Part shown: positions 15,620 through 42,680 of the stretch, piece after piece
Layout: the number at the start of each line of letters is the position of its first letter
How positions within the stretch are numbered: the first letter of the stretch is position 1
NCBI GenBank assembly: GCA_024639645.1
Contig: JAHEIB010000003.1
Coordinates: forward strand, 1 to 43,351
DNA: 43,351 nt
Reading direction: 5' to 3'
From: Deltaproteobacteria bacterium
GTDB lineage: Bacteria; Desulfobacterota; Desulfobacteria; Desulfobacterales; B30-G6
Made by a program: the position numbers and the translations under genes
The notes under the pieces: model-generated
What the model was told of the DNA's origin: nothing
What the model saw: only the letters and a program-made list of their open reading frames with translations
The model's database searches: none

Positions 15620-15653
15620 GTGGTCCTCCATTTATTTCTTTGCTCTTATATGC

Positions 15654-16718: not shown

Positions 16719-16740
16719 AATCAATTGCCTTATATAGGGT

Positions 16741-23538: not shown

Positions 23539-24672
23539 TTATTTTTTAAAAGGGATTTTGATGGTAAACTGAGAGCCCTGTCCCTCAACGGAATCCACAT
23601 GGATGGATCCACCGTGCTGAGCGATGATTTTGTTGGAAAGAAAGAGCCCCAGCCCGGTTCCCTCTCGGCCTTTTGAAGAGTAAAAAAGTGAAAACAGCTT
23701 GTCCCGGGTCTCAATATCCATTCCGATACCATTGTCACCAATGATAAAGAAAAGATGCTTTTCGTCATTCTTGACTGAAAACACTATCTTGTGCTGTTTG
23801 TTCCGATCGTCTTTGATACAGGCATCGATGGCATTTTCGAGGATATTGATGAGGGCTGAATGGACAAAGCCTGTGTCGATATGAATTTTCTCGGCCGAGA
23901 AATCGAAATCTTTTTCCAGCGCTATATTGAATGTTTTACTTTTGGGTTTAACGACCCGGATGACATCATTGGCAAAGGTGAGAATATCGATTTTTTCACA
24001 TCTGAGATTCCTCTCTTTTGCGTAAAACAGGATGTCGCTCACCATTCGTCGAATCCGCTCCACCATCATTTTGAGGATGTCACCGCCTTCCTCGATCTTC
24101 AAAATGTCCTTGGTCTTCAATCCTGAAGCGAGAAGATAGAGACCGCCATCAAGACCGGTCAGCAGCCCCTTGATCCCGTGTGAAATAGATCCCACCATGA
24201 GACCCAGGTTTGAGAGGTTGTCCTGGAGTTCGGTTTTTTCGCGGATGAGTCGTTCAAGATTTTCGGTGTATTCCTGGAGCTGCTTCCGGGTGACAATCTT
24301 TTCTTCCACCCGTTTCAGGGAAATTTCAAGGGCGTCCATGTTGATGGGTTTAGTAATAAAATCAGTTGCTTGATGCTTAAGGCTTTTAATGGCCAGATCC
24401 ATGTCGCCGTGGCCGGTGATCATAATGACTTCCGCTTCGGGATTTTCGCGTTTGATGTGTTGCAAAAGAGCGATGCCATCCATGAGGGGCATCTTGATGT
24501 CAGTCAGGATAATGGGCGGTCTTTCCTCAAGAAAGGTTTCCAATGCTGTTTTGCCATTTGCCGCCGTCAACAACTGATATCCCATGTCCGACAAGGTCAT
24601 GCCGAGGACATCACGGATGTCTTCTTCGTCATCCACCAGGAGAATTTTTTTCTTGTCTTGGGACGTGTTCAT
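23539..24672 (-). CDS. REC-histidine kinase (receiver at N-terminus)
   Basis: A 377-aa cytoplasmic signalling protein. The N-terminal receiver has LLVDDEED, phospho-acceptor Asp58 (ILTDIKMP), and Lys108 in TKP. A coiled segment (about 120-155) leads to an H-box with His165 in GSISHGIKGLLTG, unlike the usual HEIxNPL. The ATPase has DNGIGMD and GREGTGLGLFLSN. AAGGGAAG precedes ATG 24672. It is the last gene of the second Hdr locus, and its receiver and linker closely resemble those of the protein at 41432-42583 at the other end of the locus. It probably takes part in a phosphorelay with the membrane kinase just upstream (inference). The target is unknown. Confidence 0.9.
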   Translation of the reverse strand: MNTSQDKKKILLVDDEEDIRDVLGMTLSDMGYQLLTAANGKTALETFLEERPPIILTDIKMPLMDGIALLQHIKRENPEAEVIMITGHGDMDLAIKSLKHQATDFITKPINMDALEISLKRVEEKIVTRKQLQEYTENLERLIREKTELQDNLSNLGLMVGSISHGIKGLLTGLDGGLYLLASGLKTKDILKIEEGGDILKMMVERIRRMVSDILFYAKERNLRCEKIDILTFANDVIRVVKPKSKTFNIALEKDFDFSAEKIHIDTGFVHSALINILENAIDACIKDDRNKQHKIVFSVKNDEKHLFFIIGDNGIGMDIETRDKLFSLFYSSKGREGTGLGLFLSNKIIAQHGGSIHVDSVEGQGSQFTIKIPFKK

Positions 24673-24791: not shown

Positions 24792-27059
24792 TTATGGTAA
24801 CGGAAACGACACAATAAAGCAGACACCCTGGTCCTTGTTAGGCAACGCCATGATGGTTCCCCCACAGTCCTTGACAATGCCGTAACTGATGGAGAGACCC
24901 AAACCGGTACCCGCACCCACTTCCTTGGTGGTGAAAAAAGGTTCGAATATTTTTTCTGCAACATGGTTTGGAATGCCGATACCTGTGTCGCAGACTTCGG
25001 CGACAACGCGGTCCCCATCGAGATAGGTTTTGAGTATAATCCGTTCTTCATGATCAACCCGGTTTGCAAAAGATATTTTCTCCTCGATAGCGTCCCTGGC
25101 ATTGAGCAGGAGGTTGATGAATACCTGTTCAAGACGACTTGGATCGGCATGGATTTTGGGTAACTCCGGTTGCATATCCTTGATGACCGCTATCCCCCTG
25201 ACTTTCAGTTGCTGGCTGAAAATCTCAAATGCGCTCACGAGGACATCGTTGATGGAAATTTTTTCCAGTGCCATGTCTGTTTTTCTGGCAAACTGCCGCA
25301 TGTGGTTGATAATCCGGGCAGCCCGGTCCACATTGCTGTCCACTTTCATCAGCATGGTTTCGAGGGTTTCTTTTTCAATATCTTCACCACGGCTGATCTT
25401 CTTGATGAAAAAACTGCTGGCCGTCTTGATGACCGACAGGGGTTGATTCAGTTCGTGGGCAACACCCGTGGCCATTTCACCCAGCGTGGCCATTTTGCTG
25501 GCCTGGATCAGCTGCTGTTCCGCCTCCAGGCGCTTGGTGATGTCACTTGTGGTGACCAGGAGCACCTCTTGCCCGGAATATTCGGAAAGAGAATTACGGA
25601 TATCCACGAAAAGCTCTTTGCGGTCTTTGGCCAGATGCTTGGCCTGGTTTATGACGGCGGATGCTGTCAGCATCGTGGCGTAATGCTCCCTTTCTTCTTC
25701 CCGGAAAAGATCCAGGAATGATCTGCCAACGATATTTTCCGCGGTGAACCCGTACACGCTCTCAACACTCATATTACAGTCCAGAATATGGAGGGTCTTG
25801 ATGTCGAGTACAAACACGGGGTTGGGTATATTGTTGAATATGTCGCGGTATTTCTTTTCGGATCGCTCCAGGTCAACTTCTAGCTGCTTGTGTTTGGAGA
25901 TATCGTGGGAGATCTCCATGGCGGCGACAATCTCGCCTTTATCGTTGACAATGGGCGAAGTCCGCACAATCCAGTGTTTGACGGTACCGTCTTTGTCAAA
26001 ACCGGTCTCTTCTGTGGAGTATGACTTGCCATCCGCGAAGGTCCATTCAACCGGGCAGCGCTTACACTTTTCCGAACGGCCCTTGTAGGCGTGGTAGCAG
26101 AAATCTCCGGGTTTGGGGTCGAACCGGGTAGAGAATTCCTTGTTGTAACGCAGCAGTTTATAATTTCGATTCTGGACGGTGATGATACAGGGAACCTGCT
26201 CAAACAGCTGCATATATTCGTCCCGCTGCATATTGAGAGCCTTTTCTTTTTGGGCGATCTCTGAACCCATTTTATCGATGGCATCTCCCAGCTGACCCAT
26301 TTCATCCTTCTGCGACAGTTGGGACTTGCTTTCATAGTCACCCTTTGCAATATCCTGGGTGCGGGTGATGAGTTTTTTGACGGGATGGTTGACAAACCTC
26401 AGCACGAAGAAAAAGATGATGGTGGATGTGAGCAGAAAAACGGAGATGGACATGCTGATAATACCACGCTGAAGGTGATACAGGGACGCATCTGTTTTTT
26501 TTAGAGAGACGACCAGGTCCAGAGCCCCGAGAATCTTCTTGTCCCGGGGGTGGATGTGGCAATCATCCGTGGAGCAGCCTGGTTCGTTTCGGATAGGGCT
26601 GATGATGCCCAGGAGCCGATACCCCTCGGCATGGTTGAATATACGCGTCCTTTCGTGGAGAGCGAGCTCGGAAAGGGGTGGTTCTGACCGGTGGCAGATG
26701 TCGCAGGCTTCGGCCTTGATGTTTGTGGACAGATCGACTTCAGAGGGTCGGTTCGAAAACTTGATTTCCCCTGCCTTATTGTATATTCGAATATTCTCTA
26801 TTTCAGGCAGCCTTCCGATGTTCATGATGATCTGGTTGATATCATCCCTGGAATTGAGCATCATGGCGTAGTGCGTTCCCAGCCGGATAGTGGTAGTGAG
26901 TCTGTCGGTGGTTCCCACAATATTCTGCATCTCCTTTTCCTTCTGATAGCGCACATTGACATAGGCCCATATTGAAACAGACACCAGAAAGACAAGACCG
27001 ATGGTCAATACGATCTTGGAGACGAGCTTTGTACGTAATTTTTTGAAAAAATTAAACAT
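24792..27059 (-). CDS. Membrane sensor histidine kinase with periplasmic heme-binding motifs (2TM-HAMP-PAS-PAS-HisKA-HATPase)
   Basis: A 755-aa inner-membrane sensor kinase. TM1 lies at about 16-35 and TM2 at about 199-222. Between them a periplasmic domain holds a canonical c-type heme motif CDICH (119-123) and a CX4CH motif (162-168). A HAMP linker follows (about 222-275). The first PAS (about 283-390) contains Cys321, Cys332 and Cys335 in a CYHAYKG...CKRCP pattern. A second PAS is at about 400-510. The phospho-acceptor is His535 in GVAHELNQPLSVIK, and the ATPase has GAGTGLGLSISYG. It starts seven bases after the REC-HdrA stop, so it is co-transcribed. A redox or gas-sensing role through heme is inferred; heme binding itself is predicted from motifs only. 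Confidence 0.9.
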   Translation of the reverse strand: MFNFFKKLRTKLVSKIVLTIGLVFLVSVSIWAYVNVRYQKEKEMQNIVGTTDRLTTTIRLGTHYAMMLNSRDDINQIIMNIGRLPEIENIRIYNKAGEIKFSNRPSEVDLSTNIKAEACDICHRSEPPLSELALHERTRIFNHAEGYRLLGIISPIRNEPGCSTDDCHIHPRDKKILGALDLVVSLKKTDASLYHLQRGIISMSISVFLLTSTIIFFFVLRFVNHPVKKLITRTQDIAKGDYESKSQLSQKDEMGQLGDAIDKMGSEIAQKEKALNMQRDEYMQLFEQVPCIITVQNRNYKLLRYNKEFSTRFDPKPGDFCYHAYKGRSEKCKRCPVEWTFADGKSYSTEETGFDKDGTVKHWIVRTSPIVNDKGEIVAAMEISHDISKHKQLEVDLERSEKKYRDIFNNIPNPVFVLDIKTLHILDCNMSVESVYGFTAENIVGRSFLDLFREEEREHYATMLTASAVINQAKHLAKDRKELFVDIRNSLSEYSGQEVLLVTTSDITKRLEAEQQLIQASKMATLGEMATGVAHELNQPLSVIKTASSFFIKKISRGEDIEKETLETMLMKVDSNVDRAARIINHMRQFARKTDMALEKISINDVLVSAFEIFSQQLKVRGIAVIKDMQPELPKIHADPSRLEQVFINLLLNARDAIEEKISFANRVDHEERIILKTYLDGDRVVAEVCDTGIGIPNHVAEKIFEPFFTTKEVGAGTGLGLSISYGIVKDCGGTIMALPNKDQGVCFIVSFPLP

Positions 27060-27066
27060 AAATAGC

Positions 27067-30000
27067 TCACGACTTGGGTTCGCCGGGACTCACAATGGAT
27101 AGTGATGGCCAGTTGCTTTCCATGGCTGCGTCGATCATGTCCAGAACTTGATGATCGGAAAAGCCTTGGATCACGGATGCACTGTTGGGACAGGCCGTGG
27201 CACAGTTGCCGCAGCCCTGACACATGGCAGGGTTGACCACAATTTTCTCCAGGTTCGAATCCAGATGTCTTGCATGGTAGGGACATGTGTCGATACATTT
27301 TTCGCAAAGACTGCAGAGGCTGTGTCGCACCGAGGCGATAATTTTCCCGGCAGACAACGTTTCATGAGTGAGAATTCGTAATGCTCTTTGAGCGGCAGCC
27401 CCGGCAGTGGCGATGGTGTCCGGTATTGATCTGGGGGATAAGGCAATTCCACATCCAAAGACCCCTTCTTTGATCGCGTCTACAGGGCGCCACTTGGATT
27501 CCGCTTCCAGAAAAAACCCATCTTGATCCTTTTCAACGGCAAAAGCCTCCGCCAGTGTTGCCGGCAATTGCGGAACCATACCGGTGGCAAGAACCAGGAG
27601 ATCGGCTTCTATCTCCAGGGGTCTGTTCAGAATGGGATCGGTGACAGTAACAGCAAGGGGTGTATTCGTTTTTGTGGGAGCACTTACCCGGGGTTTGTTA
27701 TTCAACGCGTACTGGATGAAGATGACCCCCTCTTTGCGGGCAGTTGTGAAGTAACGCTCGGTGAATCCAACAGTCATCATATCACGGTAAAGAATATAAA
27801 CAGCAATCTTCGGGTTTGCCTTTTTAAGCGTTAAGGCGTGTTTCAACGATGTGGGGCAACAGACCCGACTGCAGTAATTTCTCGGTTCTTGTCTGGAGTC
27901 CACGCACTGGATCATCACCACGGAATCGAGTTTCTGTGGGTCAACATCACCTTTTGCGAGACCCGATTCCAGTTCTTTTTGGGTCATGATGGCCTGACTG
28001 GTACCGTGACCATACGCAGAGGTTGTGGCTTCGTTGCCGCCGGTTGCCAGTATGGCGACACCGTGCTGAATCGTCTCAATGCTTCCGTCACCGTTTTCGA
28101 TGCTTGTATAAAAATTTCCCACATCACCAAATGCGGCCGTAATTTTTGATTGCAGGTGAATATGGACAAGGGGGTGATTTTCTGACGCTTGAACGGTTTC
28201 ATTGAGATACGGCTCCAGAGATAGACCCTCGATGGTCTGATGCAGCCAGAGCAGGTTTCCACCAAGCTTGTCGCTTTGTTCTACCAGGTCCACGGGATAG
28301 CCGTGATCCGCGATTGCCAGGGCGGCATGCATCCCGGCAATACCACCGCCGACCACCAGGGCCCTCCTGGTGACGGGCTGCATGGATGTGGGTAGCGGAT
28401 CCATATTTTTCAGCCTGGAAATGCCCATTTTTAAAGCTGATAGCCGGTAGCTGACAGCCGATAGCTGGTTTGTTGGATTTTGGGTTTGAGTGAAGATCGG
28501 GGACATGATATCCACCACATCCATCATTTCGGCATCCAGATGAATTTGTTGGCCCAACACTCTCAGTTTTCGGATGAAAAGGTACGGATGGCACGCGCCT
28601 ATGAGGAGCCGGTTGGGCCGGCGGTCTTTAATGATCCCGGTGAGTTCCTCCCATCCAGTTGCTGTACAGCATTGTCCGAGAAAAACGACCCTGTCCACAC
28701 ACGGATCCTGTTGGAGCTGGCGTGTCAATGCTTCCTCGTCCAGATGCTCCGAATATTTGTTCCCGCAATTGCAGACAGCTACCAGCATCTTCGGCTCTTC
28801 TTTTGAGATATCCTGAAATGCCGGCTCAGAAAAAGATTCATCTGAAAGAGACCCCCCCGCAGCATGAATGATTCTGGAGGCTTCCAGAGACGCCGCAGAT
28901 GCATACATTACGGATTCACTGATATCTTTGAGGCCTGAAAACGATCCGCCGGCCAGTACACCTGATCGGTCGGTGGTCACAGGAGAAAGCGCTTCCGTCT
29001 GGATGAAGCCCCAGGGGTTAAGGGGCGCCTCGATCAGTTTTGATAATACCTCGATACCACGTGCCGGGCGCTGGCCTATGGCCAGCACCACCAGATCAAA
29101 GGTTTCATTATGGATACTCCCGTCGATCTGGGCGTATCGGATAAGCGCTTTCCCGGTCGATGTATCTGCTGTGATGGAATGGATGCGGGCCCTTTCAAAT
29201 CGTACACCGTGCTCCTGCTCTGCGCTGTCACGATAGCGCTGGAATGTTTTTCCAAACGTGCGCATGTCCATGTAAAAAATGGTGGTTTCAACGGGCGAGG
29301 GGTTCTTTTTTATCACCAGCAGGGCTTCTTTTATGGCAACCATGCAACAGACGGAAGAGCAGTAATCTGCGTCGAGTTGGACATTTCGAGAGCCTACACA
29401 CTGTATCCAGGCGATCTTCTCGATATTTTTACCATCCTGGGGTTTCACCAGCCGACCCTGTGTCGGCCCGGTGCCGCTCAGCATCCGTTCCAGTTCGCGG
29501 CTGGTAATCACGCCGGGGTTTGTCCTATAGCCATAAATGTTTTTCGATTCGGTTGGATCAAAATATGCCGTGCCACCTGATAATACAATGGCACCCACCT
29601 CAAGAGATTGAACGTCACCGGCTTCGATCTCTTCGTAAACCTGAACGATTTTTGCGATCATCTGTTCCGGGTCAAAGGGTTTCATCAGATAATCCTGCGC
29701 GCCTGTTTTCATTGCTTCCACGGCGGTTTCCACCGTGGCAAAAGCGGTCATCATCAATACACACAGGTCAGGGAAACTTTCCTTGGCTTTCTCGAGGAGC
29801 TCGACGCCATCCATTCCGGGCATCTTGATATCCGTCAACATGAGGTTGAACGACGCTTTTGACAGCTTTTTGAGCGCCATGGGCCCGGATTCGGCAACAT
29901 CCACAGAAAAACCTTCTTCGTCCAGCCACGCCTTCAGGGAGTCGCGCACGATCAGTTCGTCATCCACCACCAGGACATAAAATTCTTTACGTTTTTCAAG

Positions 30001-30549
30001 CGAAAGCTCAATGGCCTGGGTAGGACAAATCTTTTGACATTCTCCACAGTGGTTGCAGGCTGCAAGATCGATGACATAAGGGTTGGGGATGGTGTGGGGA
30101 ACGGGCAGGTAAATTGCCTTGCGCGTCGTCAAACCCTCATTGAATGCGTCGGGAATTTCCACCGGGCAAACCGTTTCACAGGCGCCGCAGCCAACGCATC
30201 GTTCCGGATCGACCCATGTGGGTTTCTTTCGCACGGACACTGAAAATTTGCCGGGCTCGCCTTCTATGGCCACGACTTCCGTGTTGAGCCGGATATCGAT
30301 ATTTTCGTGAAAAAGGCCCTTTCGAAGGCAAAACTGAGATGACTGGTCACGCTTGACAAGGGGCAGCATCTTGCACATGCCGCAATGGTTTGATGGAAAT
30401 TGATCGTCCAGCTGACTGAGAATGCCGCCCATATATGTTTCGCGATCGATGAGGGTAACACCGTACCCGTTTTCGGCCAGATCCAGGGCCGAGCGGATAC
30501 CGCTGATGCCTGCGCCCACTACCAGGGCTTTACCCATTTTTTTACCCAT
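27067..30549 (-). CDS. HdrA-like flavoprotein with an inserted response-regulator receiver domain
   Basis: A 1160-aa HdrA family protein with an unusual insertion. Residues 1-185 are HdrA: FAD motif VGAGISGIRSA, the SNHCGMCKMLPL motif (cysteine where hdrA at 18408 has selenocysteine), and [4Fe-4S] motifs CVGCGACETVCP (118-129) and CNHCGECQKICP (165-176). Residues 191-305 are a complete receiver: VDDE at 195-198, phospho-acceptor Asp240 in LTDIKMPGMDG, Thr268 and Lys290. HdrA sequence resumes at 315 with EVGAIVLSGG and CVGSRNVQLDADYCSSVCC. A second module has GGGIAGMHAAL near 735, and two ferredoxin motifs end the protein (CSLCEKCIDTCP, CQGCGNCATACP). AGGAGG precedes ATG 30549. About 20 residues near 686-706 are encoded by a genomic repeat. 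Confidence 0.92.
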   Translation of the reverse strand: MGKKMGKALVVGAGISGIRSALDLAENGYGVTLIDRETYMGGILSQLDDQFPSNHCGMCKMLPLVKRDQSSQFCLRKGLFHENIDIRLNTEVVAIEGEPGKFSVSVRKKPTWVDPERCVGCGACETVCPVEIPDAFNEGLTTRKAIYLPVPHTIPNPYVIDLAACNHCGECQKICPTQAIELSLEKRKEFYVLVVDDELIVRDSLKAWLDEEGFSVDVAESGPMALKKLSKASFNLMLTDIKMPGMDGVELLEKAKESFPDLCVLMMTAFATVETAVEAMKTGAQDYLMKPFDPEQMIAKIVQVYEEIEAGDVQSLEVGAIVLSGGTAYFDPTESKNIYGYRTNPGVITSRELERMLSGTGPTQGRLVKPQDGKNIEKIAWIQCVGSRNVQLDADYCSSVCCMVAIKEALLVIKKNPSPVETTIFYMDMRTFGKTFQRYRDSAEQEHGVRFERARIHSITADTSTGKALIRYAQIDGSIHNETFDLVVLAIGQRPARGIEVLSKLIEAPLNPWGFIQTEALSPVTTDRSGVLAGGSFSGLKDISESVMYASAASLEASRIIHAAGGSLSDESFSEPAFQDISKEEPKMLVAVCNCGNKYSEHLDEEALTRQLQQDPCVDRVVFLGQCCTATGWEELTGIIKDRRPNRLLIGACHPYLFIRKLRVLGQQIHLDAEMMDVVDIMSPIFTQTQNPTNQLSAVSYRLSALKMGISRLKNMDPLPTSMQPVTRRALVVGGGIAGMHAALAIADHGYPVDLVEQSDKLGGNLLWLHQTIEGLSLEPYLNETVQASENHPLVHIHLQSKITAAFGDVGNFYTSIENGDGSIETIQHGVAILATGGNEATTSAYGHGTSQAIMTQKELESGLAKGDVDPQKLDSVVMIQCVDSRQEPRNYCSRVCCPTSLKHALTLKKANPKIAVYILYRDMMTVGFTERYFTTARKEGVIFIQYALNNKPRVSAPTKTNTPLAVTVTDPILNRPLEIEADLLVLATGMVPQLPATLAEAFAVEKDQDGFFLEAESKWRPVDAIKEGVFGCGIALSPRSIPDTIATAGAAAQRALRILTHETLSAGKIIASVRHSLCSLCEKCIDTCPYHARHLDSNLEKIVVNPAMCQGCGNCATACPNSASVIQGFSDHQVLDMIDAAMESNWPSLSIVSPGEPKS
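28432..28494. repeat. AGC-type palindromic repeat inside the REC-HdrA coding sequence
   Basis: AAAGCTGATAGCCGGTAGC followed by TGACAGCCGATAGCTGG matches the intergenic repeat family (for example 30580-30650). It is read in frame as QLSAVSYRLSAL, replacing a stretch that is ordinary HdrA sequence in the paralogues. Confidence 0.6.
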
Positions 30550-30644: not shown

Positions 30645-31790
30645 CTAATTGTGTATACCTACGATTTCAGCAAATTCGTCTTCCTTGAATTCAGAAAGAG
30701 GCGGCATTTCTTCTGGGTTTTTGCCGGCTTCGTAGTTGAATGCCCGCTGGGTGTTGTATGCGATCATGCGAAACAGCGGCATGATTGCGATGTCATTGGG
30801 ACAAGCGTTGGTGCATTGTCCACATCCGACACAGGCGGTGCTCATGTGCGCCAAACGGGTGATGTGGTACAGCAATGTGTCCGTGGGCATTTTTACGGCC
30901 CCTTTTTTTCTGGCCCATCGCAGATACTGGTTGGGTTCGTGATCGAACACATCGGTCACGAAAACGCACTCTCTGCAGTAGCACACGGGGCATGCAACCC
31001 GGCAGTTATAACAGTTTACGCATCCGGCCAGATAGGCGCTCAGTTTCTCCACGCTGTCCGTCTTGCCGGCTGTTTCAGCAAACATATTGTCTCGAAATGT
31101 CGTTCTTTCCGAAATCAGACGTTCTATTTCTTTCCTGCGCGAGGCAGGTTCTTCTGCAGCCGAGAGATCGAGGCTTTCAAGAAGATGGCCACCCTTGTCC
31201 GTAAGTGCCTGAACAAGGATCTGTTGACGGGTATCCACACCGAAAAAGCCGATGCTGATGTCTGCACCTTCGGCTACGGGAAGCTCGCAGGATTGGCATG
31301 CCTGTGCCGGTTCGACACTGCCCATGTCGGGGGTTTTTCCGGAAAGCACCTGAGCGGCAAATGTGTTCGCGGCCCCATCGCCGTTTTCGCCAGCCCAGTT
31401 CAGATAATCCCTGTTCCCCATCGCCCCCAGGCAGTCAATGCCGATGCGTATCAATTTGTCGGTGCGTGCCTGTTTGAGTTTGACCAGTTCCACAAAAGCT
31501 CTGATTTCGCATGGGCGCATCACGGCTGCTATGGTACCACCCGAGGGTTTACGTGTGAGGCGTGACACGATTTTGGCATTGTTCATTGGAAACGCCGGGG
31601 ACAGGGGGTCCACGCTGTTCAATGAGACCGGGTCTGTCAAGAGGGTCGGCATGACCATCTTTTTTGTGGGAAGCCTACAGGGAGCCAGGATGGCATTGAC
31701 ATCCTCCTTTGCCAGGATATTTTTAAAAAGCCCCCTCAGCGCGTCCAGCAGATCATGATCTTTAACATCTATTTTGGCCGTTATTACCAT
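30645..31790 (-). CDS. FrhB/FdhB-like iron-sulfur subunit of the second Hdr locus
   Basis: A 381-aa cytoplasmic Fe-S protein. The N-terminal half resembles F420-hydrogenase/formate dehydrogenase beta-like subunits, with AAVMRPCEIRAFVEL near 88-102 and RIGIDCLGAMGN near 115-126, and a CQSCELP motif at 165. Two ferredoxin-type clusters follow: CVNCYNCRVACPVCYCREC (257-275) and CVGCGQCTNACPNDI (320-334). The layout parallels FlxC of the first locus, but the sequences are clearly diverged. A strong AGGAGG lies before ATG 31790. It stands between mvhD and REC-HdrA, so it probably connects to these. Whether it binds a flavin or an external dehydrogenase is not visible. Confidence 0.85.
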   Translation of the reverse strand: MVITAKIDVKDHDLLDALRGLFKNILAKEDVNAILAPCRLPTKKMVMPTLLTDPVSLNSVDPLSPAFPMNNAKIVSRLTRKPSGGTIAAVMRPCEIRAFVELVKLKQARTDKLIRIGIDCLGAMGNRDYLNWAGENGDGAANTFAAQVLSGKTPDMGSVEPAQACQSCELPVAEGADISIGFFGVDTRQQILVQALTDKGGHLLESLDLSAAEEPASRRKEIERLISERTTFRDNMFAETAGKTDSVEKLSAYLAGCVNCYNCRVACPVCYCRECVFVTDVFDHEPNQYLRWARKKGAVKMPTDTLLYHITRLAHMSTACVGCGQCTNACPNDIAIMPLFRMIAYNTQRAFNYEAGKNPEEMPPLSEFKEDEFAEIVGIHN

Positions 31791-31919: not shown

Positions 31920-32345
31920 TCACCCCACCAATTGCATCCTGGCCTGGCTGGGTCCCAGGGTCTTGATCTGAGCCACGAGTTCCTGAAGGGTTTCAGCCAG
32001 CAAAACACCATCGCTGGCCGCTATCCATGTGAGCCTCAGCCGTTCAGGCTCAAATCCGAAACTGGGCAGAATCTCTTTCAACAGTTTGATACGTCGGCGG
32101 GCTTTGAAATTCCCGTTGATGTAGTGGCAGTCGCCGGGATTGCAGCCACTCACCAGAACACCATCGGCACCTTCCAGGAGCGCCTTGATGACATACTTGG
32201 GGTCCACCATGCCACTGCACATCACCCGGATGATTTTTATATTCGGTGGATAAGAGAGGCGCGATGTGCCGGCCAGGTCTGCCGCCGTATAGGTACACCA
32301 GTTGCAGAAGAAAGCCAGGATGGTGGGTTCGAAATTATCGTCCAT
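31920..32345 (-). CDS. mvhD: MvhD-like [2Fe-2S] subunit, cysteine form
   Basis: A 141-aa MvhD family protein linking an electron-input module to HdrA. It has CNWCTYTAADLAG near residue 14, VMCSGMVDPKYV near 41, and VSGCNPGDCHYINGNFKARRR near 66-85, where the first cysteine is encoded by a normal TGC codon. It is the internal comparator for the TGA-containing flxD at 17782-18213. AGGAG lies 7-8 nt before ATG 32345. A large inverted repeat occupies the gap before it (32367-32491). It is part of the second Hdr operon between HdrA-GltD and the FrhB/FdhB-like gene. Confidence 0.93.
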   Translation of the reverse strand: MDDNFEPTILAFFCNWCTYTAADLAGTSRLSYPPNIKIIRVMCSGMVDPKYVIKALLEGADGVLVSGCNPGDCHYINGNFKARRRIKLLKEILPSFGFEPERLRLTWIAASDGVLLAETLQELVAQIKTLGPSQARMQLVG

Positions 32346-32561: not shown

Positions 32562-35500
32562 CTATCCCGCCAATAGCCCTTCAATTTCAGAAAAAATCTG
32601 CTTGTCTGTAAAATGACGTACCTTGGCTGCACCACTGGGACAGTATCCGGCACAACTGCCACACCCTTTGCAGATGGCTTCGTTGACTTCACTGATGCCT
32701 TTGCGCTCGTTGAATTCGATGGCCGTGTAGGGGCAGAGGCTAATGCATACCTGGCATCCGATGCAGATATCAGGGTCGATGGTGGAGATCATCGGTGACA
32801 CGGCCACCTGGCCGGAAGCACTGAGTGAAAGTGCTTCGGCAGCGGCTCCTTTGGCCTGGGCGACGGTATCCGGGATGTCTTTGGGTCCCTGGCAGGCGCC
32901 GGCCAGGAAGACACCGCTCGTAGCGGTGGAAACGGGTTCGAGCTTGGGGTGTTCTTCCTGGTAGAAGCCATCGCTTCCGGTGGAAATACCGAAAATTCTG
33001 GCCACATCGTTTACATCGGGACGTGGCTCCATAGCGGTACACAGGATCACCATTTCCACGGGAATTTTCAATAGACTGTCGGAGAGGGTGTCTTCCGCTG
33101 TTACCCACAGCATGTTGTCGACTTCCTTCACACTTGAGGCTTTGCCGCGGATCATACGAACACCTTCGCTTTGGACACGCGTATAGAATTCTTCGTAGCC
33201 TTTGCCGAAGCAACGCATGTCGATGTAGAAATTGTAAATCTGGGTTTCGTGACCACACTTGTCCTTGAGAAGATGGGCGTACTTAAGGGCATACATACAG
33301 CATGTGCGGGAACAGTACTCATGATAGTTGATGTCGCGACTGCCGATACAGTGCAGGATAGCCACACTTTTGGGTGGCTTGGTGAACTTAAGGTGATCAT
33401 CAGGGTCGCGTTTCAAAAGCCGGCCGCTCGTAGGCCCGGTGGCATTAGACAGGCGTTCGAATTCCAGGTTGGTGAAGACGTTGGCATACCGGCCGTATCC
33501 ATACTGTGTCATGGGGCTTGGATCAAGGGGGTCAAAGCCCGTAGCAACAACGATGGAGCCCACTTCGACATCCTGTATTGTTTCCGTCATGTTATGATTG
33601 ATGGCTTTTGCCTCGCAGGCATCCACGCACAGTTTACAATCACAGCACCCTCCGCAATCCAAACACCGGGCGGCTTCCGCTGTTGCCGCTTCCTCTGAAA
33701 AACCGTGATCGACCTCATGGAAACTTTTCACCCGCTGCTGTGGGTCCAGCAGGGTGGACACGACCCTGGGGCTTGTCTCGATATCTTCGGAGACGGATTT
33801 CCAGTTGTTTCCCGGGGGTGGTCCAACCTCCGGTTGTTCTAGGATTCCATGGCGATCTTCATCACAAAGATAGCGATGGATGGCTGCCACAGCCTTGTGG
33901 CCGGCGGCAACCGCTTCGATGACCGTTGCCGGTCCGGTGACGGCATCACCGGCGCCGAAAACATGCGGGAGACTGGTCTGCATTGTTCCAGGGTTGACCT
34001 TGATGGTATTTCGCGTGGTCAATTCCAGACCGGGTTCTTTTGTGGCCCAGGACACATCAATTTTCTGTCCGATAGCGGGAATGACGGCGTCGCATGGTAC
34101 GATATATTCGGAACCCTTTACCGGAACAGGGCGCCGACGTCCGCTGGCATCCGTAGGGCCGAGTTCTGTCCGGATACAGGTGCACCCGCTTACATGCCCA
34201 TCCTTGCTCTGTATGTCCACAGGTGCTGTGAGAAAGGAGATTTCAATACCTTCCTCCCGGGCCCCGGCAATTTCTTCTTCGTAGGCAGGCATTTCACGTT
34301 CAGAACGTCTGTAGACCACCGTGACATGTTCAGCCCCGAGACGTTTGGCTACCCGTGCCGCGTCTATGGCGACATTTCCACCACCGATAACGACAACCCG
34401 TTTGCCTGGGGCTTCTCGATTCCCCAGGTTGATCTCCCTCAAAAAGCCTACAGCATCAATGACCTCTGCGACCCGCTCCTCTCCCTGGATCTGCATCTGA
34501 AGGGAGCCATGGGCCCCAATCCCCAGAAAAACGGCAGAAAATCCTTTTGACTCAAGATCCGACAGGGATATGTCCTGGCCGAAACGTACATTTGTTTCAA
34601 CGTCGATTCCGTGATCAAGGATATATTGGATCTCCTTTTCCAGCAACTTGGCTGGCAATCGATAGTCGGGGATACCCACACGGAGCATTCCTCCCAGCTG
34701 GCCGAGGGCCTCGAACAAAGTGATGCGGTAGCCTTTGAGTCTCAGGTAATAGGCCACGGTGAGACCGGCGGGTCCGGAACCGATGACGGCGATTTTTTCC
34801 GAACGGTTTTCGATCTTGGGCAGAGGTAGGTCGGAAACGTTCACCTGGTCGGCGGCAAAACGCTTCAACTCACGGATGGCAACCGGGGTGTCCACCTCGA
34901 CCCGGCGACAGGATTTTTCACAGGGTGCCGGACAGACACGGCCAAGGGTCCCGGGGAGGGGTATCTTCTCCATGATGAGTTTTACCGCCTCTTGGTATCG
35001 GCCTGTTTTGATAAGAGCGATATAGCCTTGGACGTTGGTTTCTGCAGGACATGTCTGAACACATGGTGCCCGATCAAGTTTGTCTATGGTGTAAGTGATG
35101 GGAACGGCCTGAGGAAATGGTCGGTAAATAGCTTTTCTCAGCTTGGTGCCCACATCCCATTCATTGGGGAAGGTAACAGGGCATACCTTTTCGCACTCAC
35201 CGCACCCAGTGCAGTTGGTTTCGATATAACGTGCTTTGCGAAGGATTTTGACTTTGAAGTTGCCGATAAATCCGCTGACATCCACTATTTCACTGTAAGA
35301 CAGGAGTTCAATGTTGCGCTCCTGGCCCACAGAGACCATTTTCGGTGTTCCAATACATGCCGCACAGTCCAGGGTGGGAAAGGTTTTGTCATACTGGAGC
35401 ATGTGCCCCCCGATGGTGGGCGTTCTTTCTACCAGGTATACCCTGAAACCGGCACTGGCGATATCCAGGGATGCCTGCATGCCGGCGATACCAGCGCCTA

Positions 35501-35942
35501 CCACGAGGGTGTTTGTACAGACGGGAAATTCCGCCGGTGTTAATTCCTGCTGGTGAACAACACGCATAATGCCTGCTCCGGCTATAATCTTGGCTTTTTG
35601 TGTTGCTTTTTCCTCCTCCAGGGTCACCCAGGAAACATGTTCCCGGACACTGACCATGTGGAAGGACCTGTAGGGGTTGAGACCGGCGCGCTGGCAGGCA
35701 GCCCGAAAGGTTTTTTCGTGCATCCTTGGAGAGCAGGATGCCACAACCACACGCGTGAGATGGTGGGTCCGAATATCATTTTCAATCAATTCCTGACCCG
35801 GATCCGAGCACATGAACAGATAATCCCGTGATACGGTTACATTCGGGAGGGTCGCTACATAAGCAGCCACCTCCTCCACCCGGACACGGTAAGCGATATT
35901 AATGCCGCAGTGGCAGATGTAGAATCCGACGCGTTCAGGCAT
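32562..35942 (-). CDS. HdrA fused with a GltD/NfnB-like NAD(P)H-dehydrogenase module
   Basis: A 1126-aa flavoprotein. The N-terminus is HdrA-like (GFYICHCGINIAYR), followed by an FAD motif VGAGIAGMQASL near 148, the DCAACIGTPKMVSVG motif with cysteine, and a ferredoxin motif CTGCGECEKVCP near 244. From about 290 to 700 a GltD-like block is inserted: Fe-S segment PCVQTCPAE...VCPAPCEKSC, FAD motif IGSGPAGLTVAYYL near 387, NAD(P) motif VVIGGGNVAIDAA near 518, and GAGDAVTGP. HdrA resumes with CLDCGGCCDCKLC and CIGSRDINYHEYCSRTCC, and two ferredoxin clusters close it. ATG 35942 is chosen: AGGAGG lies 6 nt ahead, and it overlaps the upstream gene by 8 bp. It could take NAD(P)H electrons directly into HdrA (inference). 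Confidence 0.93.
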   Translation of the reverse strand: MPERVGFYICHCGINIAYRVRVEEVAAYVATLPNVTVSRDYLFMCSDPGQELIENDIRTHHLTRVVVASCSPRMHEKTFRAACQRAGLNPYRSFHMVSVREHVSWVTLEEEKATQKAKIIAGAGIMRVVHQQELTPAEFPVCTNTLVVGAGIAGMQASLDIASAGFRVYLVERTPTIGGHMLQYDKTFPTLDCAACIGTPKMVSVGQERNIELLSYSEIVDVSGFIGNFKVKILRKARYIETNCTGCGECEKVCPVTFPNEWDVGTKLRKAIYRPFPQAVPITYTIDKLDRAPCVQTCPAETNVQGYIALIKTGRYQEAVKLIMEKIPLPGTLGRVCPAPCEKSCRRVEVDTPVAIRELKRFAADQVNVSDLPLPKIENRSEKIAVIGSGPAGLTVAYYLRLKGYRITLFEALGQLGGMLRVGIPDYRLPAKLLEKEIQYILDHGIDVETNVRFGQDISLSDLESKGFSAVFLGIGAHGSLQMQIQGEERVAEVIDAVGFLREINLGNREAPGKRVVVIGGGNVAIDAARVAKRLGAEHVTVVYRRSEREMPAYEEEIAGAREEGIEISFLTAPVDIQSKDGHVSGCTCIRTELGPTDASGRRRPVPVKGSEYIVPCDAVIPAIGQKIDVSWATKEPGLELTTRNTIKVNPGTMQTSLPHVFGAGDAVTGPATVIEAVAAGHKAVAAIHRYLCDEDRHGILEQPEVGPPPGNNWKSVSEDIETSPRVVSTLLDPQQRVKSFHEVDHGFSEEAATAEAARCLDCGGCCDCKLCVDACEAKAINHNMTETIQDVEVGSIVVATGFDPLDPSPMTQYGYGRYANVFTNLEFERLSNATGPTSGRLLKRDPDDHLKFTKPPKSVAILHCIGSRDINYHEYCSRTCCMYALKYAHLLKDKCGHETQIYNFYIDMRCFGKGYEEFYTRVQSEGVRMIRGKASSVKEVDNMLWVTAEDTLSDSLLKIPVEMVILCTAMEPRPDVNDVARIFGISTGSDGFYQEEHPKLEPVSTATSGVFLAGACQGPKDIPDTVAQAKGAAAEALSLSASGQVAVSPMISTIDPDICIGCQVCISLCPYTAIEFNERKGISEVNEAICKGCGSCAGYCPSGAAKVRHFTDKQIFSEIEGLLAG

Positions 35943-38235
35943 GCAGGGCCTCCTGGTCAAGTTCTAAATTGATATGGACAGGCATGGGGTGTTCATATCT
36001 TATCTCAATGGATTGAATCAGTAGCTCGGCAATATCTTGAACAGCAATGCGTTCTTGGATACCGAGGTTCATGATGGCTTTTTGGAGCATCCGTGTGCAA
36101 TAGGGACAGGCCGTGGCGATCACACCGGCACCAGTGTTCAGGGCCTGTTCAATTCGCTGCACTGCCAGTCGGTCATTGGAGGAAGGATCCTGGAATGCGC
36201 CCCCGCCCCCGCCCCCGCAGCAGAGGCTGTTGTTACGATTGTCAGGCATTTCAACAAGGCTGAGACCCGGGATGCCCTTCAAAATACGGCGCGGCGCGTC
36301 GTAAATGCCGTTGTGACGCCCCAGGTAACAGGGATCGTGAAAGGTGACACGGCTTGTTACTTCGAATCTTGGGACCAGATCTCCTTTTGAGACGAGTCGA
36401 TCAAGGAGCACGGTGTAGTGTTCGAATTCCATGTGCGCCCGGGTATTTGCATACGCTTTTCGAAAGGTTTCAAGACAATGGGGTGAGGTCGTGAGGACCC
36501 TTTCAACACCCCGACGCTGAAAAAGCGACATATTCTCATGTGAAAGGTCTGAAAAACGGTCTACAGCACCTAATCGGAAGGCCGGGTCTCCGCAACAACG
36601 CTCTTCTTTTCCAAGGCTGCCAAATCCTACTTTTGCCTGCAGCAGCAGTTTGAGGAGCGCCCGGCCGGCCTGATTGCATGTCTGGGACGGTGTTTCGTCA
36701 TATGCCGTGGTGCAGCACGTGAACAGGCAATAGGTATGTTCCGGTTTGAAATCAGGTATATGGATATCTTCTGACCAGCACAATCGTTGCCCGGGGTCTC
36801 CCCCCCAGGGGTTACCTTTGTCCGTTAGTTGCTGCAAAGGGATTTCGAACGGCGCCGGGGTGTGCCCCTGTATGTTCTGGATTTCCCGGACGGATCTGAT
36901 TACATCGATGAGATGAATTCCCCGGGGGCAGGCGTCCCCGCAGGCATCACAGGTGACGCAGTTCCATGCAGCGTCATCGACACTCTTTACGGTACCGGTA
37001 CCCAGGCCGATTTGGCGAAGAATCTGTCTGGGGCTGTAAGCTGATACCTGATTCCAGGGACAGACAGCGGTACAGGTGCCGCACTGCAAGCAGACCATAA
37101 ACAGCTCTCCAATACGCGTCTTGACGTTTTGCATGTCCACGGAAGAGGGTTTTGCAGCTTTTTCCCGAACGCTTGTCAAAAACAGGGCCAGGGGGCGGTA
37201 GAAGAGGTGGGACCACTTTCCAAAAGGGACCTCGATGACCAGCATGGGCACGGCGATGGCCAGATGGATGACATACATGACATACGTACCCATGGGCCAG
37301 CCGGCCAGGCGCACCATGTGCATGATGATACCGGTCAGGGTGGTCAGAAAAAGGAGGATCAGGAAAAGCCAGTCGGAAAGCTCTGAAAAGCGGTGGAGGG
37401 CCTCTTGTTTTCTGCGTCGGCTCTGGAACATTTCAATGGTAACGATCAGGATGACACCGGTGGCATAGTATCCAAAGAGGCTCGAGAAATGCCAGCTGCT
37501 ATCATCCACCTGAAACCAGCGGATAAATACGATAATCAGGGTCATCATGGTCATGTAGCCGGATACCAGAAGAAAATGTTTCAGCCAGCGGCTTTTGTCC
37601 TCACTGCATTCCCGCCAGCGCTTCTGGGTTGCAAAATGAAGCACAAAGGATTTGGCTTCGGTCAGATAAAGCCGGAAAGGTACGGACGTGTCGCTCATGA
37701 TGAATCGGAACATCCTGAATGCATTTGACAGGAGAAAGAGTGACAGCACAGCCGCCATGCCAAGATCGCCGATTTCGATCCACAGAACCGGCACAAAGGT
37801 ATTGACGGCCACATGATCGGTAATGATGGGGCCGTGAAAAAACCAGAATAGAGCGATGATACCCAGGGCCACCACACCCAGCGCACCCATCTCCCATGTT
37901 TCGTAGAGATAGAATTTTTTGGCGAGACCGGTCCAGTCGTACTGGGTGGTCAACCACCGGCGGGTTGCCATCATGGTTTCTGCGGGTTCGGCACCCCGGG
38001 GACAATCTAAATTGCATTCACCACAATAATAACAGAGCCACGGGACGGGTGACTGGAGCAGCTTGTCTCTTAAACCCAGCTGAAGATAGCGGTATATCTT
38101 TCGAGGGAATGTATCTGTGCCGGTGGAAAGGGGACATGACGCGCTGCAGGTGCCGCATTGCATGCAGATTTCCATGTCTCTGGCCCCGAACTTTGCTACC
38201 TCCTGGTAAAGTTCCGGGTCGATTTCCTTATACAT
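35935..38235 (-). CDS. Membrane HdrC-(6 TM)-HdrD-like fusion protein
   Basis: A 766-aa protein joining three Hdr functions. Residues 1-85 are an HdrC-like ferredoxin domain with CMQCGTCSASCP (25-35) and CYYCGECNLDCP (68-79). Six hydrophobic segments follow at about 117-134, 156-178, 219-239, 253-271, 289-309 and 318-336. A second HdrC-like Fe-S domain has CLQCGTCTAVCP (382-393) and CVTCDACGDACP (426-437). The C-terminus (500-745) is HdrB/HdrD-like with two CCG motifs, CC at 547-548 (RCCGD) and 672-673 (LCCGG), the kind that bind the noncubane clusters of heterodisulfide reductase. GGGAGATG precedes ATG 38235. It is first in the second Hdr operon. It could couple HdrA to the membrane quinone pool; no heme ligands were proven. 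Confidence 0.9.
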   Translation of the reverse strand: MYKEIDPELYQEVAKFGARDMEICMQCGTCSASCPLSTGTDTFPRKIYRYLQLGLRDKLLQSPVPWLCYYCGECNLDCPRGAEPAETMMATRRWLTTQYDWTGLAKKFYLYETWEMGALGVVALGIIALFWFFHGPIITDHVAVNTFVPVLWIEIGDLGMAAVLSLFLLSNAFRMFRFIMSDTSVPFRLYLTEAKSFVLHFATQKRWRECSEDKSRWLKHFLLVSGYMTMMTLIIVFIRWFQVDDSSWHFSSLFGYYATGVILIVTIEMFQSRRRKQEALHRFSELSDWLFLILLFLTTLTGIIMHMVRLAGWPMGTYVMYVIHLAIAVPMLVIEVPFGKWSHLFYRPLALFLTSVREKAAKPSSVDMQNVKTRIGELFMVCLQCGTCTAVCPWNQVSAYSPRQILRQIGLGTGTVKSVDDAAWNCVTCDACGDACPRGIHLIDVIRSVREIQNIQGHTPAPFEIPLQQLTDKGNPWGGDPGQRLCWSEDIHIPDFKPEHTYCLFTCCTTAYDETPSQTCNQAGRALLKLLLQAKVGFGSLGKEERCCGDPAFRLGAVDRFSDLSHENMSLFQRRGVERVLTTSPHCLETFRKAYANTRAHMEFEHYTVLLDRLVSKGDLVPRFEVTSRVTFHDPCYLGRHNGIYDAPRRILKGIPGLSLVEMPDNRNNSLCCGGGGGGAFQDPSSNDRLAVQRIEQALNTGAGVIATACPYCTRMLQKAIMNLGIQERIAVQDIAELLIQSIEIRYEHPMPVHINLELDQEALHA

Positions 38236-38343: not shown

Positions 38344-38760
38344 CTATCCATGTTCCAGGGTAGACAAATCCTGAACTGTCGTCAGGAGATCCTCGGTTTC
38401 CAGCGGTTTTTCCATGAACGTATCGGTTAATTCATAGGCTTCACAGTGCCTGTAACCGTATACGTTTTGGCATCTCAGAAACGTGTCTTTATCCAGGTTA
38501 GAGAGCATGATGACCGGTATATGCCTGAGGACCTTGTCCTGCTTGAGGTTTTGATACAGATGGATGCCGCTTTTTCCCGGCATCATCATGTTGAGGATGA
38601 TGACGGATGGATGCTCTGTAATAGCTTTTTTGAACCCGTCTGCCTTGTTGTTCGCCGTAATTGCATTGAATCCGCTGGCGTTCAGGAGATTTATAAGGAA
38701 AATTCTCGTATCTGCCTCATCGTCCACCACAAGGATTTTTTTCACGATTTTTGCAGACAC
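38344..38760 (-). CDS. Single-domain receiver protein with Asn in place of the phospho-acceptor Asp
   Basis: A 138-aa stand-alone receiver domain. The acidic pair is present (ILVVDDEADTR) and the Lys is present (MEKPLE), but the segment that normally reads L-D-x-x-M-P reads VIILNMMMPGKSG, so the phospho-acceptor is Asn (codon AAC). GTG 38760 is chosen because GGGAGG lies 8 nt ahead. An in-frame ATG at 38886 would start inside the sigma54-type promoter at 38870-38885. It probably acts without phosphorylation, for example as a constitutive or decoy partner, or senses something else (inference). It is the first gene behind that promoter, about 110 bp upstream of the Hdr operon on the same strand. 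Confidence 0.85.
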   Translation of the reverse strand: MSAKIVKKILVVDDEADTRIFLINLLNASGFNAITANNKADGFKKAITEHPSVIILNMMMPGKSGIHLYQNLKQDKVLRHIPVIMLSNLDKDTFLRCQNVYGYRHCEAYELTDTFMEKPLETEDLLTTVQDLSTLEHG

Positions 38761-38869
38761 CCCAAAAGCCTCCCGGAAAAAAATGCTTTCGCGTTTGTGG
38801 TCTGTCAGAGAGGAATGTACACAGTGCAATCTCAGACCTTTGTTGCTATTCAGGTTTATCTGATGAATT

Positions 38870-38885
38870 AGCACAGAGCGTGCCA
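38870..38885 (-). promoter_or_regulatory. Sigma54 (-24/-12) promoter of the receiver gene and probably the second Hdr locus
   Basis: On the minus strand TGGCACGCTCTGTGCT matches the consensus TGGCACG-N4-TTGCW at all but one core position, with the invariant GG and GC exactly 10 bp apart. It lies 110 bp before GTG 38760. A sigma54 activator gene lies directly upstream on the same strand. Confidence 0.7.
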
Positions 38886-38957
38886 AACTTATAATGATAT
38901 ATAACTTACAGAAATAATTGGTATAAAATGAATATTTCCCATCAGGTCATACCCTGC

Positions 38958-39584: not shown

Positions 39585-39645
39585 TTTAAGCATTATGCTG
39601 CGTATCGTTTAATGATCAAAGCTTATCGCCGAAGCAGCTAAAGTA
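39585..39645. repeat. TAAGC/AGC palindromic repeat at the end of the sigma54 activator gene
   Basis: GATAAGTTTTAAGC ... AAAGCTTATCGCCGAAGCAGCTA. The activator stop codon TAG (39638-39640) is the first triplet of TAGCTGCTTCGG on the minus strand, so the stop is again formed by the repeat. Confidence 0.45.
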
Positions 39646-41371
39646 GGTGATACCGCTTCATCTTTCGCCATAGGGTGGTGCGATCCATATTTAAAGTACG
39701 GGCTGTTTCTTTTCGGTTTCCGCCCTGCTGTTTTAAGACCTGGATGATTTTTTGGCGTTCTATTGAGGCTGATGCATCAGCACTAAGATCGGAGAGCGCT
39801 GTTTGCATATCCGATGCCGGGGAAGAGAACTGAACGTGCTCGGGCAGGTGTTCGGGTAGAATTTCCTGTTCCTGACTGATAATCAGGGCGTGCTCGAGAA
39901 TGTTTTCAAGTTCCCTCACGTTGCCGGGATAATCAAACTTGAGAAGTATTTCCAGGGTGGATTTTGAAATATTCACCGGGTGGTTGCCCCTGGCGGCACA
40001 GAGCCGTCTCAGTATATGCCGTAACAGCAGGGGTAGGTCTATCTTGCGGTCCTTCAGTGTCGGGAGTCTAAGTCTGAAAACATTCAACCGATAAAAAAGA
40101 TCTTCTCGGAACAATCCGTTTTCTACCAGCTTGTCGAGTTTTCTATTGCTGGCAGATAAAATTCGCACATCGACTTTACGGGTATGGCGACTCCCCAGTG
40201 GATAAAACTCCCTGTCTTCCAGTACCCTCAATAGTTTTGCCTGAAGTGACAAAGGCAGATCACCGATTTCGTCCAGGAAAATAGAGCCGCCATCCGCTTC
40301 GTTGAATCGTCCGGGTTTGTCCCGATCGGCGCCTGTAAATGCGCCTTTGACGTATCCGAACATCTCAGATTCCAGCAGGTTGTCCGGAATGGCGGCGCAG
40401 TTGACCTTGACAAAGGGGCAGGATGCCCGTTGGCTGGAAGAGTGGATGACCTTTGCCAGAAGGTCTTTGCCGGTTCCCGTGGGCCCTTCAATGAGGATGG
40501 TCGCGTCGGTTCCGGCAATAACGGATACGGTTTCAAACACTTTCTGCATCTCAGGGCTCTTGCCGATCATATCGTGGAAGGTGTATCGGTCGCTGATAAC
40601 CTGATCCAACTGGTGTTCGAGGGTAAGGTCGTGAAAAGTGGCCAGCCCACCGACGATGGCGTCTTTTTCGTTTTTCAGGGCAATGATATTGGCTCTGACG
40701 GGAACCTTTTCACCGGCGTTGGAAATGATTTCTCCCTGCCGGATGCTCTGCTTGATTCCTTTTTTGATGGATTCTTTCAAGAGGAAGAGATCGTTGGTTC
40801 CGTCGTTTCCGAAAATAGTTGAACAGGATTTTCCCAGGACCTGGCGTCGGTCATAACCGGATATTTTCTCGGCTTTGTTATTGAAAAAGGTTATGTAGCC
40901 CCCTCGGTTGACCGTAAAAATACCCACATCGAGATTGTCCAGGATTATTTTCAGGCTGCGCTCCTCATAATGAATGCGGTCGATGAGGTCCGCGATGGGG
41001 GAATGGTCCTGGAGAATCGTGAGACAGCCGGCCAGTTGATAACTTGCATCATAAATCGGGATAGCCATCCGTGTTAGCAAGCGTGCCGTTTCATTCTCAT
41101 TGATGATTTCCACCTCCGGCTCGTCTGTGACGGCATTGCTGTTCCCCTTCAGAAGGCAGGTGGTCATGCAGGGAACACCGGTGAAGATATCACGGCAATC
41201 TTTCTCTTTGACATCATTTTCTTTCAAACCCATGAGCGCCTGGGCCGTCAGGTTCATGGACTTTACCTTCCGGCCGAGATCCACAGTAAAGGCACCGACG
41301 CCGAGTTCATCGAGGATTGCCAGGGATTGATCGCTCCGGATGACATCTATTCTTTTATGATCTAAAGACAT
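39638..41371 (-). CDS. Sigma54-dependent transcriptional activator (PAS-PAS-AAA+-Fis)
   Basis: A 577-aa enhancer-binding protein that opens sigma54 promoters by ATP hydrolysis. There is no receiver domain. Two PAS-like sensor domains occupy about 12-125 and 135-250, the first with Cys59, Cys68 and Cys72 ([15 protein letters not shown]), suggesting a redox or metal-responsive site. The AAA+ domain starts at 268 ([11 protein letters not shown]) with Walker A GPTGTGKD (296-303), the sigma54-contacting GAFTGA loop (343-348) and Walker B SIFLDE (363-368). The C-terminal helix-turn-helix is at about 548-577 ([20 protein letters not shown]). GGAG lies 8 nt before ATG 41371. A -24/-12 promoter and palindromic sites lie immediately downstream, making the Hdr locus its likely target (inference). 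Confidence 0.95.
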
Positions 41372-41399: not shown

Positions 41400-41445
41400 T
41401 TATTAGCTCATAGCTGATAGCCCGCTACGAGCTAGCAGCTATCAG
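41400..41445. repeat. AGC-type palindromic repeat at the end of the REC-histidine kinase gene
   Basis: TTAGCTCATAGCTGATAGC and GCTAGCAGCTATCAG form an imperfect hairpin. The last three codons and the stop (TAG 41432-41434) of the kinase lie inside it. Confidence 0.5.
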
Positions 41446-42583: not shown

Positions 42584-42680
42584 AATTTCTTTCCTCCGGT
42601 TTCCCGGTCCTGTCAGATCGGTGCACATGCGCTTTAAACTTGAAACATTTGGTTAAAGGTATTGTATGCCAGGGGTATTG

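Follow-up and report, generated by a model that had tools for sequence, protein, structure and literature searches.

Introduction

HdrA is a core electron-splitting enzyme, and the order Desulfobacterales is a group that includes sulfate reducers. To our knowledge, little is known about the post-translational adjustment of the direction and rate of electron bifurcation. For a sulfate reducer, the literature found describes transcriptional control of heterodisulfide reductase (Hdr), with the DVU2394 two-component system of D. vulgaris controlling the adh-hdr operon (PMC3333781). In Hdr complexes of known structure, the partner on the ferredoxin side docks at the inserted ferredoxin-like domain of HdrA, from which electrons are also anticipated to leave HdrA, on the HA6 side, and bifurcation is apparently gated by a moving arm that comprises the MvhD-type subunits and the N- and C-terminal domains of HdrA (PMC12350162). 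Here, we describe HdrA-REC, an HdrA-type flavoprotein with an inserted response-regulator receiver domain, encoded at positions 27067-30549 on the minus strand of a 43,351-nucleotide stretch of DNA (contig JAHEIB010000003.1; hereafter, the window) from a deltaproteobacterium of the Desulfobacterales. HdrA-REC is best read as the HdrA of an Hdr complex, cytoplasmic or linked to the membrane, whose activity is set by phosphorylation of the built-in receiver, a reading to which we assign a probability of about 0.65; if it holds, the cell may control the energy-conserving HdrA directly and not through gene expression.

Domain organisation of HdrA-REC

HdrA-REC is encoded by one open frame of 1160 residues with no internal stops. 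It has the features by which an HdrA is recognised, namely a thioredoxin reductase (TrxR)-like flavin adenine dinucleotide (FAD) domain into which a ferredoxin module is inserted, conserved cysteine motifs, and a gene associated with MvhD and HdrB/HdrC-type subunits. HdrA-type Fer4 and FAD Pfam matches flank the Response_reg match, and the NCBIfam HdrA2/HdrA models cover the rest of the protein at a score below their equivalog cut-offs (660 bits vs 1100), which indicates an HdrA homologue of another subfamily and not methanogen HdrA proper. Alignment to the solved HdrA 5odc (E=3.1e-113) pairs residues 7-185 with residues 145-313 and residues 313-505 with residues 316-507, residues 584-765 matching the N-terminal part of solved HdrA and residues 965-1140 its C-terminal part. 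It follows from this order that the receiver stands where methanogen HdrA has a 2-residue loop linking the inserted ferredoxin module to the FAD domain, and that HdrA-REC carries a second FAD half. A preliminary description of the locus, made from the sequence, had placed the receiver between the ferredoxin clusters and the rest of the FAD domain; the alignment agrees and corrects one detail, as the receiver sits in the first of two FAD-type halves. The inserted ferredoxin-like module contains eight invariant cysteines (C118, C121, C124, C128, C165, C168, C171, and C175).

Structure prediction, proposed in the preliminary description as a check, gave an AlphaFold2 model with a mean pLDDT (predicted local distance difference test) of 88.0 and a predicted template modelling score of 0.87 from a 57-sequence input alignment. 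The model contains a complete (βα)5 receiver at residues 191-309, with five strands and five helices, held by linkers of about 4 residues on each side. In Foldseek searches with the model, the top matches are the HdrA structures 8rvy, 5odc, 8rvu, and 7bkb, with TM-scores by target of 0.75 (8rvy_A) and 0.92 (8rvu_a).

The receiver domain and its conservation

The Pfam Response_reg profile matches residues 192-301 over its positions 1-110 of 111 (E=4.7e-31), with a score of 107.7 bits against a cut-off of 30.2. The active site comprises the acidic pair D196/D197, the phospho-acceptor D240, T268, and K290, all intact, so that the earlier claim of a full receiver is upheld by the profile match, the orthologue alignment, and the AlphaFold2 model alike. 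The domain thus unites the (βα)5 fold with the acidic pair, Asp, Thr/Ser, and Lys that characterise receivers, and shares one polypeptide with an enzyme domain, as response regulators with enzymatic output do. By sequence, the receiver falls into the NtrC/AtoC/FixJ class.

All five catalytic residues are present in 96 of 98 aligned HdrA-REC orthologues, an alignment in which a few rows represent one genome reached twice; the two exceptions are L215, which has a conservative DE pair, and L022, which is degenerate. The aromatic switch position, F270 in the window, is Tyr in 95 of the 98. Mean pairwise identity amounts to 66% in the receiver and 55-68% in the FAD and ferredoxin parts, falling to 22% in the linker at residues 306-316, so that the receiver is conserved as strongly as the flavoprotein core. 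Judged from this alignment, the whole receiver, with its catalytic residues, is under strong purifying selection. Set against 38 receivers of the NtrC type taken from these loci, HdrA-REC receivers show specially raised conservation in α1, β3, and α4, with hardly any rise in α5, a comparison in which only the contrast between elements is meaningful because the two sets differ in depth. In known kinase–receiver pairs, α1 is the kinase-docking helix, and α4 is the switch helix. Two residues at the junction are also specially conserved, R187 (90%) and F190 (100%).

Distribution and origin of the family

A scan of GTDB with each species represented by one genome returned many full-length HdrA-REC orthologues with 46-68% identity, mostly labelled as Desulfobacterales, Desulfobacteraceae, or deltaproteobacterial metagenome-assembled genomes. 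Within the source order, at a threshold of E<=1e-220, HdrA-REC was matched in 110 of 292 genomes (70/173 among those of good quality), in one copy per genome with a single exception that is split across two contigs. Seven further full-length cases (G324, G332, G422, G558, G627, G665, and G666) were found in a sample of the phylum outside the order. The orthologue set is clearly separated, since the next-best HdrAs in the same genome family drop to about 600 bits. The search across relatives that the preliminary description had recommended therefore shows a widespread architecture that is not unique to one sequence, and, as about 100 genomes share it, a chimera or assembly artefact is ruled out. 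By these comparisons, the insertion of the receiver into HdrA is a real feature, under selection and of old standing in the group. More than one-third of the sampled genomes in one order thus carry a conserved, predicted phospho-switch inside a bifurcating-type subunit. Further independent fusions were also considered; of the hits that match mainly in the receiver, the five that were checked (L057, L063, L072, L074, and L080) proved to be ordinary NtrC-family regulators.

In an HdrA tree built on the FAD columns only, with the receiver columns excluded, the receiver-bearing HdrAs form one clade with a support of 97 (Shimodaira–Hasegawa-like approximate likelihood ratio test), and the receiver-less L235, followed by L233 and L234, lies outside it. 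The tree fits a single gain of the receiver, and would then record the acquisition of a signalling domain by a metabolic enzyme. In the receiver-less L233 and L234 the Hdr operon is the same, and the genes after it encode two stand-alone receivers, side by side, and a kinase; that of L233 is distantly homologous to the window kinase and shares its haem-type motifs. This arrangement looks like an unfused version, or precursor, of the same regulatory link. The free-standing receivers also bear on the notion that the HdrA receiver is a phosphate sink, which drains phosphate from the kinase and so tunes the signals sent to another receiver. Such a sink is very improbable, for although other receivers are encoded in or near the operon, those of the receiver-less sister could do such a job, and insertion within a catalytic domain on short linkers would be unnecessary for it.

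The degenerate receivers of L022, L237, and L238 belong to one clade, in which the kinase is not linked to the operon and HdrL measures only about 670-720 aa and has no GltD insert; loss of the receiver active site and loss of the NAD(P)H input may thus go together. A linked kinase was found at none of these three loci vs 66 of 82 intact-receiver loci, a contrast in which the three dead-receiver loci count as one evolutionary event because they form a single clade. The same clade bears on a structural or assembly role, in which a receiver fold would have been taken over for dimer formation or contacts between subunits, with phosphorylation being incidental. We regard this role as distinctly unlikely: the clade does keep the domain despite its lost catalytic residues, and the module does accept large inserts, such as the GltD domain of HdrL, but the five catalytic residues are intact nearly throughout the family, α1 and α4 are specially conserved, and dead receivers coincide with a missing linked kinase.

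The linked sensor kinase

The two genes that follow HdrA-REC had been described as histidine kinases, and domain matches agree. The first, which starts 7 bp downstream of HdrA-REC in the window, encodes a sensor kinase with the order HAMP-PAS-PAS-HisKA-HATPase, and the second a REC-HATPase hybrid. Across the family, the sensor kinase lies near 66 of the 82 scored intact-receiver loci, on the same strand in 64, a count that is biased upward by the inclusion of short-flank loci where the kinase was found. Its phospho-accepting histidine is present in 62/62 covered sequences. The periplasmic region contains CxxCH in 57/57 covered sequences and CX3CH or CX4CH likewise in 57/57, the window kinase having CxxCH and CX4CH. 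This pair of motifs is the signature of covalently bound c-type haem, which the kinase is predicted to bind. The HAMP, HisKA, and HATPase domains were assigned by profile matches and the membrane helices flanking the haem-type motifs by eye; a Pfam Mcp40H-20 sensor match falls below its cut-off, and a sequence search for a solved relative of the sensor region gave no PDB match. The first PAS domain of the kinase at 24792-27059, at about residues 290-390, has a conserved C-x2-CPVE motif, which may bind a metal or an Fe-S cluster.

At L247 (8896-12394) and L248 (9884-11068), the sensor kinase is encoded outside the Hdr operon with the hybrid REC-kinase still beside it, and at L247 the two are also accompanied by a sigma54 activator. 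The occurrence of the two kinases together away from the operon indicates that they are a module of their own.

Proposed mechanism of redox control

In the proposed mechanism, the membrane kinase would use covalently bound c-type haem to sense a redox or ligand signal in the periplasm, and either this kinase or the adjacent hybrid REC-kinase would set the phosphorylation state of Asp240. Phosphorylation would lead to a change in α4/β5, where the inserted ferredoxin module meets the FAD domain, and this change would turn electron flow via the ferredoxin branch up or down, or alter partner docking, without transcription. The clusters HA5/HA6 of the methanogen module are the expected low-potential electron exit, and a receiver clamped at the base of this module would be well placed to shift the geometry of the exit cluster or the docking of the partner, which is the mechanism that we prefer. 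The complex is proposed to consist of HdrL, MvhD, the FdhB-like protein, and HdrA, together with either HdrC-HdrB or a QmoC-HdrD fusion. A fuller account, in which the Hdr complex bifurcates or confurcates, its ferredoxin branch is gated by receiver phosphorylation through the periplasmic c-haem kinase, and the arrangement was gained once and kept across the Desulfobacterales, is offered tentatively, at somewhat less than an even chance.

Phosphorylation control of HdrA is favoured because the receiver is intact and of full fold, with catalytic residues that are nearly invariant and conserved α1 and α4 helices, and because the operon usually includes a linked kinase; the unfused-looking arrangement of the receiver-less sister, the single gain, and the absence of a linked kinase from the dead-receiver clade add to it. 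Several observations weigh on the other side. At least 16 intact-receiver loci have no sensor kinase nearby, and four of the intact-receiver genomes checked (G213, G169, G290, and G176) have no match to it at E<=1e-90, so that another kinase would have to act there. A dead-receiver genome, G670, encodes the kinase elsewhere, without an adjacent hybrid kinase, which ties receiver integrity to the linkage of the kinase and not to its presence. A strict rule that predicts an intact receiver from the kinase, therefore, holds for linkage but fails genome-wide. The retention of the domain in the degenerate clade leaves room for a structural function, and the other receivers of the operon could be alternative targets for the kinases. 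Covariation between the dimerisation and histidine phosphotransfer domain of the kinase and the receiver, assessed by mirror-tree partial correlation and by mutual information with average product correction, did not exceed shared ancestry (partial correlation 0.14 vs 0.13 for the FAD control), and the top covarying pairs did not cluster at the known interface; this test, on 58 pairs with an effective number of sequences of 39, is uninformative. Taken across genomes, linkage of kinase and receiver is usual without being obligatory, and different lineages may use different phospho-donors.

The additional receivers, hybrid kinases, and sigma54 activator of the operon region could also fit a reversed flow of information, in which the receiver is a docking or reporting module through which the redox state of HdrA alters kinase or phosphatase activity, the true outputs being the other receivers or the sigma54 regulator; tethering of the receiver by short linkers beside redox clusters would suit such a reporter. 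This reversal appears unlikely, as a near-invariant phosphorylation site is not by itself needed for a reporter, and the neighbouring sigma54 activator has no receiver to address. For phosphorylation control of HdrA itself, the candidate sensor kinase, the natural receiver-less sister, and the dead-receiver clade together make direct action of the kinase testable with purified proteins.

Operon and neighbouring genes

The features of the window are listed in Table 1. Read 5' to 3' on the minus strand, the genes are those for a hybrid REC-kinase, the PAS-sigma54 activator, the stand-alone receiver, the QmoC-HdrD fusion, HdrL, MvhD, the FdhB-like protein, HdrA-REC, the sensor kinase, and a hybrid REC-kinase. 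The core HdrL-MvhD-FdhB-like-HdrA(REC) is nearly invariant over about 95 loci, and in most of them HdrC and HdrB come directly after HdrA-REC, with the sensor kinase and then the hybrid REC-kinase behind them, which gives the general order HdrL-MvhD-FdhB-like-HdrA(REC)-[HdrC-HdrB]-kinase-REC-kinase. In the source genome, the QmoC-HdrD-like fusion replaces HdrC/HdrB. As HdrC and HdrB are usually absent after HdrA-REC where the fusion occurs upstream, soluble and membrane versions of the Hdr complex are suggested to alternate.

Table 1. Coordinates of HdrA-REC, its domains, and the neighbouring genes in the window.
Feature	Coordinates	Strand	Evidence
Hybrid REC-histidine kinase (REC-HATPase), usual partner gene of the sensor kinase	23539..24672	-	Pfam, loci
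Membrane sensor histidine kinase (HAMP, 2 PAS, HisKA, HATPase), candidate phospho-donor	24792..27059	-	Pfam, motifs
HdrA-REC: HdrA-type flavoprotein with inserted receiver domain, 1160 aa	27067..30549	-	ORF, Pfam, NCBIfam, alignment, AlphaFold2, Foldseek
C-terminal 2x[4Fe-4S] ferredoxin domain, residues about 1071-1125	27175..27339	-	Pfam, Cys columns
C-terminal (second) FAD domain, residues about 725-1060	27370..28377	-	Pfam, alignment, Foldseek
Module homologous to methanogen HdrA N-terminal domain, residues about 584-716	28402..28800	-	alignment
First FAD domain, second part, residues 314-560	28870..29610	-	alignment to solved HdrA
Receiver domain, residues 191-305	29635..29979	-	Pfam, orthologue alignment, AlphaFold2
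Predicted phospho-acceptor Asp240, codon	29830..29832	-	invariant column
Inserted ferredoxin-like module, residues 111-188	29986..30219	-	8 invariant Cys
N-terminal HdrA FAD domain, first part, residues 1-110; GxGxxG and FPSNHCGMC motifs	30220..30549	-	alignment to 5odc/8rvu
FrhB/FdhB-like Fe-S protein, putative electron-input subunit	30645..31790	-	Pfam, loci
MvhD (FlpD family), [2Fe-2S] electron-transfer subunit	31920..32345	-	E=3.7e-53
HdrL: HdrA with inserted GltD-type NAD(P)H domain	32562..35960	-	Pfam, NCBIfam
QmoC-HdrD-like fusion: membrane cytochrome-b-like part, Fe-S, CCG domains	35935..38235	-	Pfam, NCBIfam, loci
Stand-alone receiver protein, often conserved upstream of operon	38344..38886	-	loci comparison
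PAS-PAS-sigma54 activator without receiver	39638..41371	-	domain matches
Second hybrid kinase, REC-HisKA-HATPase	41432..42628	-	domain matches

In HdrL, the GltD (NAD(P)H) domain lies in the same inserted ferredoxin module, slightly before the insertion point of the receiver in HdrA-REC; the HdrA fold seems to have a hotspot for insertions in this module. A second HdrA is encoded in the window at 18408-21452 on the minus strand; its frame extends past the listed ATG in the upstream direction and crosses an in-frame TGA at 21273-21275. This codon falls in the motif FPTNDCAMU, at a position where HdrA-REC has Cys, and the protein is very likely a selenocysteine HdrA. Hdr/Flx-like genes (14777-17780) come after it.

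Comparison with known systems

The preliminary description knew of no system of this kind, a claim that stands for HdrA and falls short for receivers in general. No description of a receiver within HdrA or heterodisulfide reductase was found in the open-licence full-text literature, which is weak evidence of absence, and the genome paper of D. multivorans, which also cites the Hdr proteins of D. toluolica, nowhere mentions a receiver in HdrA. Locus VIII of Db. autotrophicum HRM2, described as hdrL, mvhD, fdhB, hdrA4, and hdrCB (PMC2702500), is probably the same operon judging from this gene set; the text of that paper does not mention a receiver in HdrA4, and the likeness is one of described gene content. 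Receivers joined to metabolic enzymes are a recognised but rare class that includes a REC-thioredoxin reductase (PMC5847659). In that protein, as in HdrA-REC, the receiver is joined to a TrxR-type flavoprotein, and direct control is presumed. The reported cases are single-enzyme combinations (PMC5847659), whereas the receiver of HdrA-REC lies inside one subunit of an electron-transfer complex with several subunits and is found across an order, in a conserved operon with a kinase.

Like the HdrA of methanogen HdrABC complexes (5odc/5odh, 7bkb, and 8rvu) and bacterial HdrA2, HdrA-REC has a FAD domain split by a 2x[4Fe-4S] ferredoxin module, a C-terminal ferredoxin domain, and MvhD and HdrB/HdrC partners. 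It differs from both in having a receiver, about 120 residues long, where the ferredoxin and FAD parts meet, and in its domain order and its second FAD half. The DVU2394 system resembles the proposed switch in placing an Hdr complex of a sulfate reducer under two-component control, but acts through DNA binding. NtrC/AtoC-type receivers (3crn, FixJ, NtrC, and ZraR) belong to the same sequence group as the receiver of HdrA-REC, which, in contrast to them, has no AAA+ or DNA-binding output. HdrA-REC is thus a response regulator with a metabolic enzyme as its output, built inside the electron-bifurcating-type subunit HdrA.

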